Assembly (NCBI GenBank): GCA_025057115.1
Contig: JANWWZ010000006.1
Location: forward strand, 1 to 64,000
Source of the DNA: Bernardetiaceae bacterium
Lineage (GTDB): Bacteria; Bacteroidota; Bacteroidia; Cytophagales; Thermoflexibacteraceae
Direction: 5' to 3'
DNA length: 64,000 bases
Under the pieces are notes generated by a model. It was not told where the DNA came from. It did no database searches and worked only from the letters and a program-made list of their open reading frames with translations. Shown in pieces: positions 6,147 to 52,241 of the stretch. Positions within the stretch are counted from its first letter, which is position 1. Every line of letters starts with the position of its first letter. Position numbers and translations under genes: made by a program.

Positions 6147-6152
6147 ATTACT

Positions 6153-6718
6153 TTTCAAGTTTTAATCAGTTGTTTGTAAGGACGCGAACAACGGCGTGGT
6201 ATTTTTTTTTTAATTACAAGTAGTTGTTCGTGAGGACACAAACAACGGTGTGGTAGTTGTTCGTGAGGATACAAACAACGGCGTGGTATTTTTTTTAATC
6301 ACAGTAGTTGTTCGTGAGGACACGAACAACGGCGCGGAGTGAGGACACCAACAACGGCGTAGTAGTTGTTCGTGAGGAAACCAACAACGGTGTGGAGTGA
6401 GGACACCAACAACGGCGTGGGCATACCCTTCCCCATTGTTCATGTCTTCATGAACGATACTCTTCGCCATTGTTCGTGTCTTCACGAACAATCTTTCTTG
6501 CCATTGTTCGTGTCTTCATGAACAATCCTTCTCGCCGTCCATGTCTCCACGAACAATCCTTCTCGCCATTGTTCATATCTTCACAAGCAATCTTTCTCGC
6601 CATTGTTGGTATCTCCACGCTTATCCTTCGCCATTGTTCGTGTCTGCACGAACGATGTACTTTGTGCCTTGGAAAACAATCCAGCGCGAGTATTTTCTTT
6701 TTTAATCACACACAACAA
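6153..6718. repeat. Two-armed array of ~34-bp palindromic repeats
   Basis: About a dozen imperfect units, each an inverted repeat of the form GTTGTTCGTG-AGGA-CACGAACAAC. In the left arm (6169-6421) units read (A/T)GTTGTTCGTGAGGACACGAA... followed by GGCGTGG. In the right arm (6431-6655) the units are in the opposite orientation with a variant core (ATTGTTCGTG-TCTT-CACGAACAAT) and a spacer CTTTCTCGCC. The motif GTATTTT(T/C)TTTTTTAAT(C/T)AC recurs at about 6199, 6287 and 6691, so poly-T segments mark unit groups and the right end. Open frames across the array (e.g. repeated PLFVSSRTTT) are by-products of the repeat. It belongs to the same family as the array at 50451-50665. Confidence 0.85.
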
Positions 6719-36056: not shown

Positions 36057-37985
36057 ATGAAACGCGCCTTGGTTATATGGGTATGGTTGAATATGAGTTT
36101 TTTGTCGCTTTACGGACAACAGGGCTACCTCACTGCCCGCGATTCAGGAAAAATTTTCTCTTACTTGCAAGAAGCAAGCCAAAGAAAGACTATCAAAGAT
36201 TGGCGTGGGGCTAGCGACCTAATTAACAAAGCCGCTCTGATATGTTGGGACGCCCGCGAATTTCAAAAAGCCATTGACTTATTCCATCAATCCCTAGTGC
36301 TCAATCGCTTGGTAGACAACCAAAGCGGCATTTTCGGCATTAATAACAATTTAGCTTTTTTACACGCCGATCTACAGCAATACGACTCTTCAGTGTATTA
36401 CTTTACCAAAGTATTAGAAGGGCGTCGGCAGCAGGGAGCTAGTGAATCCGTCATCTCCGCTCTTATTAATATTTCAGTGGTGTACAACAAGTTAAAACGC
36501 CATGCAGAAGCAGTAAAAGCCCTAGAAGAAGCCCTCGAAATTGCCAACAGCCAAAATAACTTAGAGCGCGTGCGCACATGTTATGGACTTCTGGCAGAAA
36601 CATACGAAAAAATGGGGGATATGAAAAAGACCCAAGAGTACTTTGAGCGCTACAAGTCGATGGTAGAAATGCTCAATAAGGCTCAACTTTTTGCCTTGCA
36701 ACAAGAACTAACGAAAGAGCAAGAAACGCGTCGGCGCATAGAAGAGGCGCGTCGGCTTGCTGAGATGGAAGCTCGTTTGCAGGAAGAAGCTCTTAGCCGC
36801 GCTGCACGACGCCTCACTATACAAGACTCTGCCATCGCCGTGCTCAATGAGCGCTATACTAAAAATCAAATGGCGCTGGAAATCATGCGTCAAGATAGCC
36901 TCATTAAATCGCTTGAAATTAAACAACTGCAGTATGAAAAACAGCAGCAACAAATCCGCTTTTACTTTTGGCTGGCAATAGGCATGGCTGCTTTAGTGAT
37001 AGCCTTGGTAGTCATTGCTTTCTTGTACCGAATTGAAAAAAACAAAGAACGCGAGAACCGCCTCTTGCAAGCTAAAAACCAAGAGTTAGCCGCCTTAGGA
37101 CAACAACTCCGCCAGCGCAGCATAGAGCTAGCCGCTGCCAACCAAGAACTTACAGCCGCTTTGGAGCAAGTAAATTTGCAAAAAGAAATCATAGAAAAGA
37201 AAAACCAAGCCATTGCAGAAAGCATTCAATATGCTGCTAGTATTCAGCAAGCAGCGCTTTTATTTACTCCCCAAGTCAGGCAAGCACTTCCGCCGCACTT
37301 TGTTTTTTACCAGCCCAGAGACGTAGTAGGCGGTGATTTTTACTGGTTTACCACTCTTGAAAAAGAAAATCAACAGTTGTGTGTTATTGTAGCTGCAGAC
37401 TGCACAGGACATGGCATTCCTGGGGCGTTTATGAGCATGTTAGGAGGAGCACTCTTGCATCAAATCATCAACCAGCAGGGTATCACTAGCCCAGCTTCTA
37501 TTCTGCAAAAAATGCACGATGGACTCAATCAAACCCTTAATCAGCAACAGTCAGGCAATCAAGATGGCATGGATATAGGAGTTTGCGTACTTTACAAACA
37601 CAATGGAAAATACCACTATTTGGAGTATGCAGGGGCAAAGATGACTTTGTTTTATATCCCTCATGGAGAGGTACTACAAACTTGCAAGGGAGACCGCTGG
37701 CCCATAGGAGGCTACGACCCTAAAATAAAACACAACTTTAGTCACTTTTCTCTTCCCATAGAAACGCCTATTTCTTTCTACCTTTCCTCTGATGGCTTTG
37801 CCGACCAGTTTGGAGGGTTTGCAGAGCGAAAATTTTCTACAGCTAATTTTAAAGCCTTACTGCAACAAGCCCATGTGTTGCCTATAGATCAGCAGGAAGA
37901 GTTTTTAAGAGAGCAGTTTAATCAGTGGAAGGGAAAATTTCCGCAGGTAGATGACGTGATGGTAGTGGGATTTGTTTGCTCTTAG
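36057..37985 (+). CDS. TPR sensor - SpoIIE-type serine phosphatase
   Basis: 642 aa. Signal peptide 1-21 ending YGQ, then a periplasmic TPR array ~25-205, a charged helix rich in RRRIEEARRLAEMEARLQEE (~225-290), and a membrane segment at 301-325 (WLAIGMAALVIALVVIAFLY). A coiled coil spans ~335-395. The PP2C/SpoIIE domain (400-640) has RDVVGGDFYWF, AADCTGHGIPGAFMSM and SSDGFADQFGG as metal-binding Asp motifs. The sensor half is almost the same as that of the convergent histidine kinase at 38044. Expected role: dephosphorylate a STAS-type partner in response to an envelope signal. Confidence 0.9.
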   Translation: MKRALVIWVWLNMSFLSLYGQQGYLTARDSGKIFSYLQEASQRKTIKDWRGASDLINKAALICWDAREFQKAIDLFHQSLVLNRLVDNQSGIFGINNNLAFLHADLQQYDSSVYYFTKVLEGRRQQGASESVISALINISVVYNKLKRHAEAVKALEEALEIANSQNNLERVRTCYGLLAETYEKMGDMKKTQEYFERYKSMVEMLNKAQLFALQQELTKEQETRRRIEEARRLAEMEARLQEEALSRAARRLTIQDSAIAVLNERYTKNQMALEIMRQDSLIKSLEIKQLQYEKQQQQIRFYFWLAIGMAALVIALVVIAFLYRIEKNKERENRLLQAKNQELAALGQQLRQRSIELAAANQELTAALEQVNLQKEIIEKKNQAIAESIQYAASIQQAALLFTPQVRQALPPHFVFYQPRDVVGGDFYWFTTLEKENQQLCVIVAADCTGHGIPGAFMSMLGGALLHQIINQQGITSPASILQKMHDGLNQTLNQQQSGNQDGMDIGVCVLYKHNGKYHYLEYAGAKMTLFYIPHGEVLQTCKGDRWPIGGYDPKIKHNFSHFSLPIETPISFYLSSDGFADQFGGFAERKFSTANFKALLQQAHVLPIDQQEEFLREQFNQWKGKFPQVDDVMVVGFVCS

Positions 37986-38043: not shown

Positions 38044-39816
38044 TTAGCGAAACATTTGAGTGCAAGGAGTTTCTGCCAAAGGCATGTGTATATACCAGGT
38101 AGTTCCTTCGTTCACTATGCTTTTTATTTTTAGCTGGGCTTTATTGCGCTGACACAAGTTTTTGCACAAAGCAATGCCAATACCCGTTCCCCCCTCGCCA
38201 GCAGTTCCCTTAGTAGAGTAACCTCCTTGCAAAATATGGTCTAATTTCTCTGGAGGAATTCCTATTCCAGTGTCTTGGATTGATACAATGCAACTATTTT
38301 CTTGTATTTGTGCGCTAATGGTTATCTTACCCCCCTCTGGAGTGAATTTAATGGCGTTGTTGATGAGGTTGCGCAGTACGGTTTGCAAAGCCAGGCGATT
38401 GAAGTACACTGCAACACTGTTTTGAATGTAATTTTGCAGGCTGATGTTTTTCTGCTTAGCTGATAGGTGCAGTAAATCAATGGTCTCTTGGACTGTTTGA
38501 AAAAGGCAAACCTTGTCCGTTTGCATTTCTTGTTCTGTTTTGCCCCAAAGTAATAAATTGTCCAGTGTTACCATTAACTGAGTGACATTACTGTGCAGAG
38601 TGGGCATCAATTGATTAAAATCCTCAAAAGAAATGGCATTCATAAGCAGGAGGTCCAATACGCCGCGCAAGGATACTACTGGAGCCCGCAAATCATGCCC
38701 GATAATGGAAAACAACTGTTTAAGGCGTTGATTCAAAAGACTAAGTTGCTCGGCTTGCTGAGCAATCTCTTCTTTTTGCTGGGCCAGTTGGGTGTTTTTT
38801 AACTGCAACAGGCGAGCTTCACGGACTTTGTTTTCTTTAAGGCGATACAAAAAAGCAATCACCAATATAGCGATGATAAAGGCAGCCGTAACAATAAGCA
38901 AGTAAAAGTAAAAACGGCTTTCGCGATATCTTTTTTCGTACAAGAGTTGGTTGATAGTAAGGACTTTTATAATGCTGTCTTTGCGCAAAATTTCCAATGC
39001 CATTTGGTTTTTGGTATAGCGTTCAGTTAGGAGAGCAATAGCGGAGTCTTGTGCAGTGAGGCGTTGCGCAGCGCGGTTAAGGGCTTCTTCTTGCAACCGC
39101 ACTTCCATTTCAGCAAGGCGGCGTGCTTCTTCTATGCGCCGACGCGTCTCTTGCTCTTTGGTTAGTTCTTGTTGTAAGGCAGAAAGTTGAAACTTATTAA
39201 GGATTTCTACCATTTCCTTGTAACGCTCAAAATACTCTTGCGTTTTTTGTAAGTTACCCATTTGCTCATAAGTTTCTGCTAGCAAGCCGTAGCAAGTGCG
39301 CATGCGTTCTAGGTTGTTTTGGCTACGAGCAATTTCCAAAGCCTCTTCTAAGACTTTGATAGATTCTTCAAAGCGCTTTAGTTTATTGTACACGACCGAG
39401 AGGTTAATAAGAGCGGAAATGATTGGCTCAGTGACCTGCTGCCGACGACGTCCTTCTAGTACTTTGGTAAAATAATACACTGAAGAGTCGTATTGCTGCA
39501 GATCGGCGTGTAAAAAGGCTAAATTGTTATTAATGCCGTAAATGCCACTTTGGTTGTCTATCAAGCGATTGAGCGCCAGAGATTGATGGAATAAGTCGAT
39601 AGCTTTTTGGAATTCGCGGGCATTCCAGTAAGTCAAGGCAGCTTTGTTAATCACGTCGCTAGCCCCGCGCCAGTCTCTGATTGTTTTTTTTTGGCTAGCT
39701 TCTTGCAAATAGGAAGAAATTTTTACCGAGTCGTTGGCTGTAAGATAATTTTGGGCAAACAATCCTGCTATTGGCAAAAAAAGCAACGCCCATGCAGCAG
39801 GTAAATAACTATACAT
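38044..39816 (-). CDS. TPR sensor - histidine kinase
   Basis: 590 aa from the ATG at 39816. Signal peptide, TPR array and RRRIEEARRLAEMEVRLQEE helix match the phosphatase at 36057 nearly residue for residue through ~residue 290. A membrane segment follows (YFYLLIVTAAFIIAILVIAF), then a coiled coil. The kinase half has the H-box SIIGHDLRAPVVSLRG (phospho-His near 372), N-box NLINNAIKFTPEGG, G1 DTGIGIPPEKLD and G2 GEGGTGIGIALCKNLC. No receiver domain and no response regulator are nearby. The kinase and the phosphatase probably read the same kind of signal with different outputs. Confidence 0.9.
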   Translation of the reverse strand: MYSYLPAAWALLFLPIAGLFAQNYLTANDSVKISSYLQEASQKKTIRDWRGASDVINKAALTYWNAREFQKAIDLFHQSLALNRLIDNQSGIYGINNNLAFLHADLQQYDSSVYYFTKVLEGRRRQQVTEPIISALINLSVVYNKLKRFEESIKVLEEALEIARSQNNLERMRTCYGLLAETYEQMGNLQKTQEYFERYKEMVEILNKFQLSALQQELTKEQETRRRIEEARRLAEMEVRLQEEALNRAAQRLTAQDSAIALLTERYTKNQMALEILRKDSIIKVLTINQLLYEKRYRESRFYFYLLIVTAAFIIAILVIAFLYRLKENKVREARLLQLKNTQLAQQKEEIAQQAEQLSLLNQRLKQLFSIIGHDLRAPVVSLRGVLDLLLMNAISFEDFNQLMPTLHSNVTQLMVTLDNLLLWGKTEQEMQTDKVCLFQTVQETIDLLHLSAKQKNISLQNYIQNSVAVYFNRLALQTVLRNLINNAIKFTPEGGKITISAQIQENSCIVSIQDTGIGIPPEKLDHILQGGYSTKGTAGEGGTGIGIALCKNLCQRNKAQLKIKSIVNEGTTWYIHMPLAETPCTQMFR

Positions 39817-39963
39817 GTAAGTAAGATGCGGTATTACGCACAAAAATAGAAGAAGCTCTGCAATTTTTTCTCAAGTAGTAAACCTCGGCAGGGCATTGAG
39901 CTAGACGACCAATTTTTCAACCATAAAGGTACACCATTGCCCTGCTTGTGCGAGGGTCTTACA

Positions 39964-48964: not shown

Positions 48965-50272
48965 CTACTTTTCCCTGAAAAACAAGCGAATGGGCACCCC
49001 TTCTAAGTTAAAATGCTGGCGCATTTTGTTTTCTAAAAAGCGCTGGTAAGGCTCTTGGATGTATTGAGGCAAATTGCAATAAAAAGCAAAAGTAGGGCAT
49101 TGGGCTGGAAACTGCGTAATGTACTTAATCCGAACAAACTTGCCTTTTATAGCAGGAGGCGGGTAGTTTTCTATCTCCTTGAGCAGGACTTGGTTAAGTT
49201 GAGAAGTGGGTATTTTCTTAAACTTGTTTTGATAAACTTGCACTGCCTTTTCTATCGTTTGAAAAATGCGTTGCTTGTTAATTACTGATGTAAATAAAAT
49301 AGGCATATAGTCAATTGGAGCCAGTCTAGCACGGATTTCATCAGCCATGCGCTTAGCTGTGTGGCTGTCTTTTTCCACCAAATCCCACTTATTGACCATG
49401 AGCACAATGCCCTTATAGTATCGGTGCGCAAGGGAAACGATGTTTACGTCTTGAGACTCTATCCCAGAGGTAGCATCTATCATGATAATGCACACATCTG
49501 AATCTTGAAGGGCTCTAATGGAGCGCAGAACGGAGTAAAATTCTATGTGGTTTTTAATGCGGGACTTTTTGCGCAAGCCAGCAGTATCGGTAATGATAAA
49601 GTCCATGCCGAAGAGTCGGTAGCGGGAGTCGATGCTATCGCGGGTCGTGCCTGCAATATCGGTAACGATGCTGCGCTGCTGTCCCAATAAGGCGTTTAGA
49701 AAAGACGACTTGCCGACGTTAGGTCTACCCAAAATGGCAAAGCGCGGCAAGCCTTCTGGAATTTCTTGGTGGCTTTCCTCTGGAAAATGCGCTGTGATGG
49801 CATCTAGCAAATCTCCCGTACCTGCTCCGTTAATAGCAGAAATGGGATATACGTTATCAAATCCCAATGAATAAAATTCGCCGATATAATTCATTGTAGC
49901 TGGCGTATCGGCTTTGTTGACCACTACGTAAACTGGCTTCTTACTCTTGCGGATTACATTTGCAAGATCTTTATCCAAGTCAGTAACCCCTGTTTGCAAA
50001 TCTACCATGAAAAGGATAACGGAGGCTTCTTCAATGGCAATTTCCACTTGCTGGCGAATAGCTGTTTCAAATACATCGTTTGAACCGTAGACGTATCCTC
50101 CCGTGTCCACGACAGTAAATACCTTGTTGCCCCATTGGGCTTGTCCATAGTGGCGATCGCGAGTAACACCACTTTCGTTGTCCATAATAGCTTTTCTGGA
50201 CTCGGTAAGGCGATTAAAAAGAGTAGATTTGCCGACGTTGGGTCTGCCAGTAATGGCTACGATATTGGCCAT
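48965..50272 (-). CDS. der: Ribosome-assembly GTPase Der (EngA)
   Basis: 435 aa from the ATG at 50272 (MANIVAITGRPNVGKSTLFN); an open frame continues upstream but outside the family. Two GTPase domains: P-loops GRPNVGKST at ~9-17 and GRPNVGKSS near 183, with DTGG and DTAG switch motifs and NKAD/NKWD specificity motifs. A KH-like C-terminal domain ends LFFREK. Der acts in 50S subunit assembly in the cytoplasm. Confidence 0.96.
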   Translation of the reverse strand: MANIVAITGRPNVGKSTLFNRLTESRKAIMDNESGVTRDRHYGQAQWGNKVFTVVDTGGYVYGSNDVFETAIRQQVEIAIEEASVILFMVDLQTGVTDLDKDLANVIRKSKKPVYVVVNKADTPATMNYIGEFYSLGFDNVYPISAINGAGTGDLLDAITAHFPEESHQEIPEGLPRFAILGRPNVGKSSFLNALLGQQRSIVTDIAGTTRDSIDSRYRLFGMDFIITDTAGLRKKSRIKNHIEFYSVLRSIRALQDSDVCIIMIDATSGIESQDVNIVSLAHRYYKGIVLMVNKWDLVEKDSHTAKRMADEIRARLAPIDYMPILFTSVINKQRIFQTIEKAVQVYQNKFKKIPTSQLNQVLLKEIENYPPPAIKGKFVRIKYITQFPAQCPTFAFYCNLPQYIQEPYQRFLENKMRQHFNLEGVPIRLFFREK

Positions 50273-50350: not shown

Positions 50351-50448
50351 GCAAAAGGCTTTTCTCTACTGTTTTTCTTTACAATTTTGTATTTTTTTTT
50401 ACTTAGAGTTGCAAAAGCACACTTTGGCAGGCAGGTAAAAAATTTGCT
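50351..50448. repeat. Direct repeat copy 1 (~97 bp) flanking the palindromic array
   Basis: Begins GCAAAAGGCTTTTCTCTACT and ends AAAAAATTTGCT. It matches 50666-50761 except for two substitutions and a shorter poly-T run in the second copy. Confidence 0.9.
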
Positions 50449-50450
50449 AC

Positions 50451-50665
50451 TTGCGATTAAAAAAGAAAATACCCGCTGCTGGGCTGTTTTCCAAGACATG
50501 AGCAAATTACATTGTTCGTGAAGACACGAACAATGGGGAAGAGTAAGGGTGAAGACACGGACAATGGCAAGAAAGATTGTTCGTGCAGACACGAACAATG
50601 GCAAGAAAGATCGTTCATGAAGACATGAACAATGGCGAAGGATAAGTGTGAAAACACGGACAATG
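50451..50665. repeat. Second locus of the palindromic repeat family
   Basis: Starts with a ~60-bp boundary (GATTAAAAAAGAAAATAC..., ...TGTTTTCCAAG) that is also found, inverted, at 6650-6716 at the right end of the first array. Four to five palindromic units follow (ATTGTTCGTG-AAGA-CACGAACAATGG and variants with spacers GCAAGAAAG). Only one arm is present here, in the orientation opposite to the right arm of the first locus. Confidence 0.85.
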
Positions 50666-50761
50666 GCAAAAGGCTTTTCTCTACTATTTTTCTTTACAAT
50701 TTTGTATTTTTTTACTTAGAGTTGCAAAAGCACACTTCGGCAGGCAGGTAAAAAATTTGCT
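50666..50761. repeat. Direct repeat copy 2 (~97 bp) flanking the palindromic array
   Basis: Same sequence as 50351-50448 with two base changes (G to A in CTACTG/A, T to C in ACTTT/CGG) and two fewer T in the long T run. Together the copies bracket the palindromic array. Confidence 0.9.
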
Positions 50762-50813: not shown

Positions 50814-52241
50814 TCAGTGGGGAGCGTCAAACCACCAAGGAGAGGCAATCGGTTGAGTTTTTATTAGGTAAACTTTTTGGCGCATAAAGCGCTTGATAGC
50901 GGAAGGTCCCATGCGCGTGCCGCCCATGCCCGACATTTTGAAAGAATTTTTTTCGCCTTCATGAATAATAGCTGTTAAAGCAGAGTCGTTGATGCTGATA
51001 GCCCCGCCTTTGATGCGCTTGGCAATGAATAGAGCTTCTTCTACCGTTCCAGCAAAAACCGCTCCGCTAAGCCCATAGATAGTACTGTTGGCCTTAGCAA
51101 TGCCGTCTTCTATGCCATGAAAAGGCATCACGGGCATTAAAGGACCAAAAGTTTCCTCAGTCATGACTTTCATTTCATGGGTAACGTTGGTGAGTACGGT
51201 GGGAAAACACCAACCTCCGCCGTCGATCATTTCAACATATCCTTTGCCAGTTAAAATGTTTGCGCCTTTTTCTTTAGCATCGCGAAGGTGCTCATTGATA
51301 ATGTCAATCTGTTTGTCAGAAATAATAGGTCCTATTTGCCCACTGTCGTAATCTGGATAGGCGAAGCGCAACTGATTGGTTTTTTCAACCAACATACTGA
51401 CAAATTGGTCAAAAACGCTATCTTCCACGTAAATTCTTTCAATAGAAAGACAAGATTGCCCCGCATTGACTACAGAGCCCCAAAGCAAAGAAGAAGTAGC
51501 ATGATCTAAGTTAGCACTGGCGGTAACGATAGCAGGGTCTTTTCCCCCCAATTCTAAAAACACGGGTTTAAAGTGCTGAGCTGCAGCCTGATAAACTTTT
51601 AAACCCGTGGCCACGCTGCCTGTAAAGCAAATTAAGTCAGCAAGTTCTACCAATTGTGCTCCTGTGGATCCTGCCCCTTCTACGTAGGTAAGAACGCTGG
51701 CAAGTTCGGGTACTTGGGAAATGGTGTTCATCAACGGCTTGATAAAGCGCGGGGTAATTTCGCTAGGCTTGACAATGACTGCACATCCTGCAAGCAAAGC
51801 AGGAATGGTGTCAATCAAAGAGAGCAACAAAGGAAAGTTCCAAGGACTGATGACCGCTACCAGTTCGTAGGGCTCTAGGTCTTGTCTAAGGTGTATAAAA
51901 GACACACTGCTGGGTTTTTCAGACTGAGGTGGGAGACAATCAGTAGCTATCTTACACCAACGGTCAATAGAGGAAGCGATTAACTGCGCCTCTAAAATGG
52001 ACTCCGCTTTGCGCCCTGTGTCAACACAAAGAGCTTCTACAATACTTCCTAAAGCATTTTGGACCGTTTGCTTCCACTGCTGCAAGGCAGCAATTCTTCC
52101 TTCTATGCCTATTGCTTGCCATTGGAGTTGTCCTTGGCGCATGCGCTGGCATAGGTCTGCTAGCTCTTTAGCAGTGGGTGGAAATAAGTAGTAATCATAT
52201 TGCCCATTGCGAGGGTTGCGCACTGGTATGGATTCGGTCAT
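50814..52241 (-). CDS. Aldehyde dehydrogenase family protein
   Basis: 475 aa. Rossmann region with SPWNFPLLLSLIDTIPALLA; general-base Glu near 228 in PVFLELGGKDPAIV; catalytic Cys near 263 in VNAGQSCLSIERIYV; a GPLMPVMPF loop and the ALDH C-terminus. It oxidises an aldehyde to acid with NAD(P)+. The substrate is unknown; the class is closest to the broad benzaldehyde/fatty-aldehyde group. It is alone on its strand after the repeat cluster. Confidence 0.92.
   Translation of the reverse strand: MTESIPVRNPRNGQYDYYLFPPTAKELADLCQRMRQGQLQWQAIGIEGRIAALQQWKQTVQNALGSIVEALCVDTGRKAESILEAQLIASSIDRWCKIATDCLPPQSEKPSSVSFIHLRQDLEPYELVAVISPWNFPLLLSLIDTIPALLAGCAVIVKPSEITPRFIKPLMNTISQVPELASVLTYVEGAGSTGAQLVELADLICFTGSVATGLKVYQAAAQHFKPVFLELGGKDPAIVTASANLDHATSSLLWGSVVNAGQSCLSIERIYVEDSVFDQFVSMLVEKTNQLRFAYPDYDSGQIGPIISDKQIDIINEHLRDAKEKGANILTGKGYVEMIDGGGWCFPTVLTNVTHEMKVMTEETFGPLMPVMPFHGIEDGIAKANSTIYGLSGAVFAGTVEEALFIAKRIKGGAISINDSALTAIIHEGEKNSFKMSGMGGTRMGPSAIKRFMRQKVYLIKTQPIASPWWFDAPH

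Follow-up and report, generated by a model that had tools for sequence, protein, structure and literature searches.

Two arrays of palindromes in the stretch of DNA analyzed here (the window, 64,000 bp in length and corresponding to bases 1-64000 of the 164,824-bp contig C66) appeared to share a boundary sequence in opposite orientations, which raises the question of whether the two loci are copies of a portable element and, if so, how such an element inserts. The entry of REP-like and other small palindromic repeats into bacterial genomes is largely inferred. The source genome is that of a member of the order Cytophagales and comprises 2,995,891 bp in 86 contigs (completeness 100, contamination 0.08). 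Besides the window, we examined 30 stretches fetched around other arrays; the scanned DNA amounted to ~269 kb.

The left edge of the second array, at 50455, had been described in the initial annotation as the inverted right edge of the 6.1-6.7 kb array, and this was borne out by an identity of 87% over 46-47 bp (50452-50498 against inverted 6665-6710), rising to 92% over an ungapped stretch of 25 nt (50452-50476 and 6686-6710). The palindromic units of the two loci match as well, as had also been noted, within a continuous match of ~213-215 bp at 80% identity (E = 3e-47; 50452-50669, or 50449-50665 for the insert limits, against inverted 6498-6710). Because this is one continuous homology of ~213 bp, the boundary and the units are not independent evidence. 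The shared end, originally given as ~60 bp, is nearer 46-60 bp, and extension of the boundary homology into ordinary genes was not seen. In an alignment of four copies, the window copy at 50449, the reversed window copy at 6710, and a copy at C5:12574 diverge to the left of TG[CT]GATTAAAA, whereas in the fourth, on contig C85, a reversed palindrome (palindrome B) runs on where the three others diverge. Thus, the defined end that had been proposed stands insofar as three copies stop at nearly the same base, but it is common to a subfamily and internal to a longer unit, because palindrome B adjoins it in other copies; the view that it marks the outer limit of the family as a whole was accordingly rejected.

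The plan of the longer unit was derived from 24 aligned stretches, chosen for the presence of a palindrome A followed by a palindrome B, a few of which align poorly. It consists of a left end resembling TTAGGTTTTTATAAGGTCATTTTTTGCC, palindrome A, a core of ~90 bp, palindrome B, and a GGC tail with a few further bases; the consensus letters read from the alignments are ATTGTTCGTGTCTTCACGAACAAT for palindrome A and GTTGTTCGTGAGGACACGAACAAC for palindrome B. In 14 of the 24 stretches, the last B palindrome immediately follows the core end, as determined with a script inspecting the last palindrome only. Palindromes A and B are imperfect inverted copies that bound the unit, that is, terminal inverted repeats are present; both occur in some inserts but not in all. 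A search pattern with 14 fixed bases, covering palindrome and tail, matched the genome 123 times, compared with 0 matches for the reversed pattern. In the examined stretches, 208 palindromes depart from the consensus by 6 substitutions or fewer, with the GGC tail mostly kept (in YGGC, the 2 G residues occur in 194/208 and 193/208, and C in 171/208). Stem pairing barely exceeds that of shuffled sequences (0.835 versus a mean of 0.820 and a maximum of 0.833), and we therefore do not argue for the stem from covariation; predicted folding as single-stranded DNA was good for both the window insert (z = -6.64) and a full unit (z = -4.10). Mixed into the arrays at L077 (G000 C25) 1012-1340, C12, and C15 is another palindrome type, which differs in its stem (GTTGCGCGTG..CACGCGCAAC) but has a like loop and a GGC tail.

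Table 1. Features of the two array loci and their surroundings in the window (., no strand assigned).
Feature	Coordinates	Strand	Basis or remark
First array: B-type palindromes (~6168-6423), inverted A-type palindromes (~6424-6660), inverted core last	6148..6710	.	
Inverted copy of the boundary (core end)	6665..6710	-	Alignment
der/engA GTPase	48968..50272	-	Insert lies upstream of der
Left flanking direct repeat copy (target duplication), 98 bp	50351..50448	.	96% identity to 50666-50761
Insert: core fragment and array of A-type palindromes, 217 bp	50449..50665	+	C5 similarity edge; ssDNA fold
Core segment of A-core-B unit (initially annotated boundary), starts ACTTGCGATTAAAAAAG	50449..50509	+	Copy alignments
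Perfect palindrome, 11-bp arms, loop AAGA, then GGG	50510..50535	.	Palindrome scan, following bases read
Perfect palindrome, 10-bp arms, loop CAGA, then GGC	50576..50599	.	Palindrome scan, following bases read
Third, imperfect palindrome, ATCGTTCATG AAGA CATGAACAAT, then GGC	50610..50633	.	
Right flanking direct repeat copy, 96 bp	50666..50761	.	Pairs with 50351-50448
Aldehyde dehydrogenase gene	50814..52241	-	der neighbor in 3/3 genus relatives

A search for target-site duplications showed that the window insert is bracketed by direct repeats lying directly outside it (Table 1), whereas the rest of the genome contains only short, chance-level pieces of the repeated sequence. The spacer between der and the aldehyde dehydrogenase gene measures 541 bp here versus ~90-95 bp in 3/3 genus relatives, none of which shows a palindrome within 300 nt upstream of the der gene. 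The flanking repeat does not align with the short der spacers of these 3 relatives (scores of 9.8-11.6), so that the ancestral single copy, or pre-insertion state, is not seen at the window locus itself. As part of the explanation that we regard as the probable one overall, the window element inserted between the aldehyde dehydrogenase gene and der, duplicating ~98 bp of its target. The 6148-6710 array has no detectable flanking direct repeat (score of 12.8, inside the control range).

The same arrangement recurs elsewhere in the genome. The examined stretches contain at least 37 array loci, of which 33 were testable; the remaining 4 (C11:1-720, C12:1-242, C15:22-252, and C86:95963-96230) run off contig ends and were left out. 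That 4 contigs end at or within arrays suggests that the arrays probably caused assembly breaks, and more or longer arrays may be missing from the assembly. With array limits defined from their likeness to 15 inserts and the left flank aligned to the right flank, scores of ≥30, ≥20, and ≥15 were obtained in 10, 14, and 16 of the 33 arrays, respectively, compared with 24, 30, and 86 of 5,000 random placements; among the 4,956 placements outside a WD40-repeat gene on C55, the corresponding counts were 7, 12, and 67, and all 12 placements scoring ≥20 fell in or across long open reading frames (ORFs), der included. When the array limits were set by hand, 13/29 arrays scored ≥20 versus 19/3,000 random placements in the same DNA. 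The 10 strong repeats are 47-190 bp long (47-184 bp in the test of the 33 arrays, the longest measuring 190 bp in another alignment), 80-96% identical, and different in sequence at each locus. The 6 weak positives (scores of 15-22; 26-71 bp, 70-89% identity) are to be held loosely, given a random rate of 1-2% at ≥15. Across the ~269 kb, a seed scan found near direct repeats of ≥28 bp only within the arrays, their flanking repeats, and the WD40 gene. No flanking repeat at a score of ≥15 was found in 17/33 arrays, including the one at 6.1-6.7 kb; old insertions with decayed duplications and arrays of other origin would both look so.

Since the inserts of the library had been trimmed at their repeats, the evidence for exact abutment of repeat and array is in part circular, but 2 checks are independent of this procedure. 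In the window element, similarity to the C5 copy starts at query base 110 and the flanking repeat stops at base 109; at C2:32325-32529, a locus outside the library with a weak repeat, the inner edge of one repeat copy falls 6 bases beyond the array limit and that of the other 8 bases within it. Among the matches listed, a search of the inserts for target DNA from other loci gave a single weak lead, a 13-base piece of the repeat at C85:53.9 kb that recurs in the insert at C85:41.8 kb (E = 0.015). At C7, C22:95, C22:213, C85:41, and C85:57, the left repeat copy overlaps the beginning or the end of a long ORF, and duplication of the target would explain how inserts can lie at gene ends without gene breakage. 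No special structure is seen in the duplicated targets (mean z of -0.45 over 16 targets, computed with RNA parameters), and selection of targets for structure was thus rejected.

The locus on C5 allows comparison with an identifiable gene. The stretch repeated there comprises about 18 codons from the end of ychF. The copy on the left completes an intact ychF (VQDGDIMHFRFNV), whereas the one on the right is an altered relic, after which the downstream DNA begins. Both a second copy of the ychF end and a palindrome are present downstream of ychF in the source genome; among 10 relatives with full-length ychF, none repeats the last 50 nt of the gene (≤14 substitutions) in the 700 bp downstream, and none has a palindrome (≤4 substitutions) within the same distance. 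The locus-specific repeats, together with the ychF comparison, indicate that these are inserted, mobile-type elements with long and variable target duplications. The initial proposal of a portable element is thereby supported by evidence new to this analysis, namely the flanking duplications particular to each locus and the comparison with relatives.

The 15 inserts cut at their flanking repeats are all shorter than 1 kb, and none carries a gene. A palindrome tail lies near one end in 14/15 inserts by script (some of the distances exceed 10 nt and are loose) and, in the window copy, by eye, the GC of its tail having been assigned to the flanking repeat by the alignment. At the second end, 7/15 inserts have the conserved left end and 2/15 (window and C5) the core end, whereas in the rest it is another palindrome or unclear. 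These counts point to preferred ends with no single fixed pair.

Candidate enzymes were sought with 4 protein families, Y1_Tnp, RVT_1, Ku, and DDE_Tnp_1, none of which had a match in the whole genome. The absence of a transposase or REP-associated tyrosine transposase (RAYT), initially reported for the window, hence extends to the whole genome for Y1_Tnp and DDE_Tnp_1, and the idea that a Y1 gene in this genome carries the same hairpin fails with 0 Y1 matches. Mobilization by a resident Y1 gene was rejected on this ground, as were resident reverse transcription, which a SINE-like retroposon would require (RVT_1), and Ku end joining, for lack of a match in the families searched. Y1 genes do occur in 9/13 genomes of the family (30 matches); of the 20 of these 30 loci that were inspected, 19 are without the element palindrome and 1 has a weak match. 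At one Y1 locus of a relative (G008 L129, on C59), the gene is flanked on both sides by other palindromes, with loops AGGA or TCCT, and a relationship of this enzyme to the loop of the element palindrome is a possible lead.

We consider it probable that the element is small, mobile, and non-autonomous, a mosaic in which GGC-tailed palindromes surround a ~90-bp core, and that it inserted with a long target duplication. Palindromes folded as single strands would be recognized by a protein, and the element would be joined to a target opened either by 2 nicks, one in each strand and separated by tens to nearly 200 bases, or by a gap of that size. Fill-in of the opened target would produce the long, variable duplication, later slippage or recombination inside the insert would multiply palindromes and whole units, and the enzyme may have been lost. 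The length of each duplication would then record the distance between the 2 cuts, making the insertion mechanism testable; being locus-specific, long duplications also mark each insertion as an event, and divergence between the 2 copies permits dating. More speculatively, the data could reflect an insertion process without any known transposase class, by which palindromic elements folding as single-stranded DNA enter chromosomal gaps or nicks with a wide stagger and leave duplications of ~30 to 190 bp, a suggestion that we regard as tentative. If true, such a footprint recalls eukaryotic target-primed retroposons, which make long target duplications.

Long, variable duplications are expected from distant nicks or a gap followed by fill-in, and also from a replication fork that changes template and comes back upstream. 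In this alternative, which we judge unlikely while giving it real weight, a stalled replication fork would copy an array located elsewhere and resume upstream, duplicating 26-190 bp without a dedicated enzyme. Besides the variable duplication length, it accommodates the variable second end of the inserts, the genome-wide lack of matches to all 4 enzyme families, and the bases that, by eye, are shared at some junctions (for example, GGCTAAAAG at C44 and GCAA in the window). Passive copying alone would not, however, produce a palindrome tail at nearly every insert and the same left end in 7/15, and the 36 palindrome clusters inspected in relatives (some loci counted twice) are without flanking repeats. 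The preferred ends lead us to favor opening of the target by distant nicks or a gap over template switching.

DDE enzymes usually make a near-fixed stagger. A conventional MITE, mobilized by a DDE transposase from another family that makes unusually long duplications and is now lost or located elsewhere, would be consistent with palindromes A and B forming inverted ends and with the 16-28 bp target duplications of the IS1202 group (PMC10132070). We consider it improbable, since duplications here extend to 190 bp and differ several-fold in length among members of one family, DDE_Tnp_1 is without a match, and the inserts are gene-less. The likeness to the IS1202 group lies in unusually long target duplications and the comparison is one of lengths only; those elements are insertion sequences with a DDE transposase, whereas the present element carries no gene and makes duplications that are longer and more variable. 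Prokaryotic MITEs are small units with inverted ends and flanking repeats that wane with age (PMC10969869). The element resembles them in its small units, inverted ends, and flanking direct repeats, target-site duplications being found at 10 loci with strong scores and at up to 16/33 overall, but its ends are themselves palindromes, the repeats are far longer than usual, and no matching parent insertion sequence was found in the search with DDE_Tnp_1.

Even less probable is a REP/BIME-type origin, in which the palindromes were moved by a RAYT and the direct repeats arose through later tandem duplication of palindrome plus flank. Palindromes of 20-40 bp, a conserved tag, and many copies, by which REP-like sequences are recognized, are all found in the element, and its GGC-tailed stem-loops in mosaic clusters resemble the tagged stem-loops of REP, BIME, and REPIN sequences (PMC3733652 and PMC3116915); the former survey reports clusters with repeated segments of flanking DNA. 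Y1 genes are, moreover, available in the family. However, the tail of the element is GGC rather than GTAG/CGTC, the genome has no Y1 match, and 19/20 inspected Y1 loci of the family are without the palindrome. Long target duplications are a further difference, the terms "duplication" and "target site" being absent from the main text of PMC3733652, and the single "duplication" passage found in the REPIN paper concerns genes (PMC3116915). Tandem duplication of palindrome plus flank predicts a second array after the right repeat, but in the inserts shown the 25 bases following the right copy are not palindrome sequence, and this route was rejected. Finally, an assembly artefact, whereby the assembler joined arrays to duplicated flanks, might be suspected in a genome of 86 contigs, 4 of them ending inside arrays, but is very improbable, given that the 2 repeat copies differ by 4-30%, their sequence is unique to each locus, and the outer flanks of the left and right copies differ.

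Among described elements, YPAL/RU-2 of Yersinia, a 168-bp palindromic element with duplications of 3-26 bp (PMC2229807 and PMC2759123), is similarly small and non-coding, with internal inverted repeats and target duplications of variable length (PMC2229807). It differs in the size of the duplications (3-26 bp versus 47-190 bp at the strong loci here), in the mosaic arrays found here, and in the phylum of the host, the comparison being one of described anatomy only. Searches of open-licence literature found no bacterial small element with duplications of >28 bp and no paper whose title or abstract describes the present element. Duplications in the IS1182 family reach up to about 60 bp. None of the element types compared is consistent with lengths of 47-190 bp.

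Beyond the source genome, the element is represented mainly by its palindrome. Matches were found in 8/38 relatives, by the palindrome with little beside it, and in 11/147 other genomes of the order, by the palindrome and up to ~17 adjoining bases; the middle of the core matched the source genome only (in this search each genome contributed 5 scored candidates, a depth at which a weak match could escape). The palindrome clusters of relatives (16 + 8 + 12, one of the 12 being a tie) showed no flanking direct repeats above 60 shuffles each, so that the long duplications are known from one genome so far. The full unit was not found in plasmids or phages, nor the palindrome with its tail in viral contigs. 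A scan of named genomes for the exact 22-base palindrome, in which very near records were possibly left out, returned 14 stretches, all from Bacteroidota, 6 of them from a single metagenome-assembled genome, Bernardetiaceae bacterium SKYG123. In 2 relatives, G011 (L068:752-2842) and G004 (L139:2-2821), the palindrome lies inside long ORFs, for example ...SNVVRADTNNGEDNS... in an ORF of 696 aa, an arrangement that recalls the Rickettsia palindromic elements. The window also contains an inverted pair of 954 nt (36126-37079 and 38794-39747; 77% complementary), which falls in 2 facing long ORFs, 36057-37985 (+) and 38044-39843 (-), and probably represents paralogous genes in opposite orientation.
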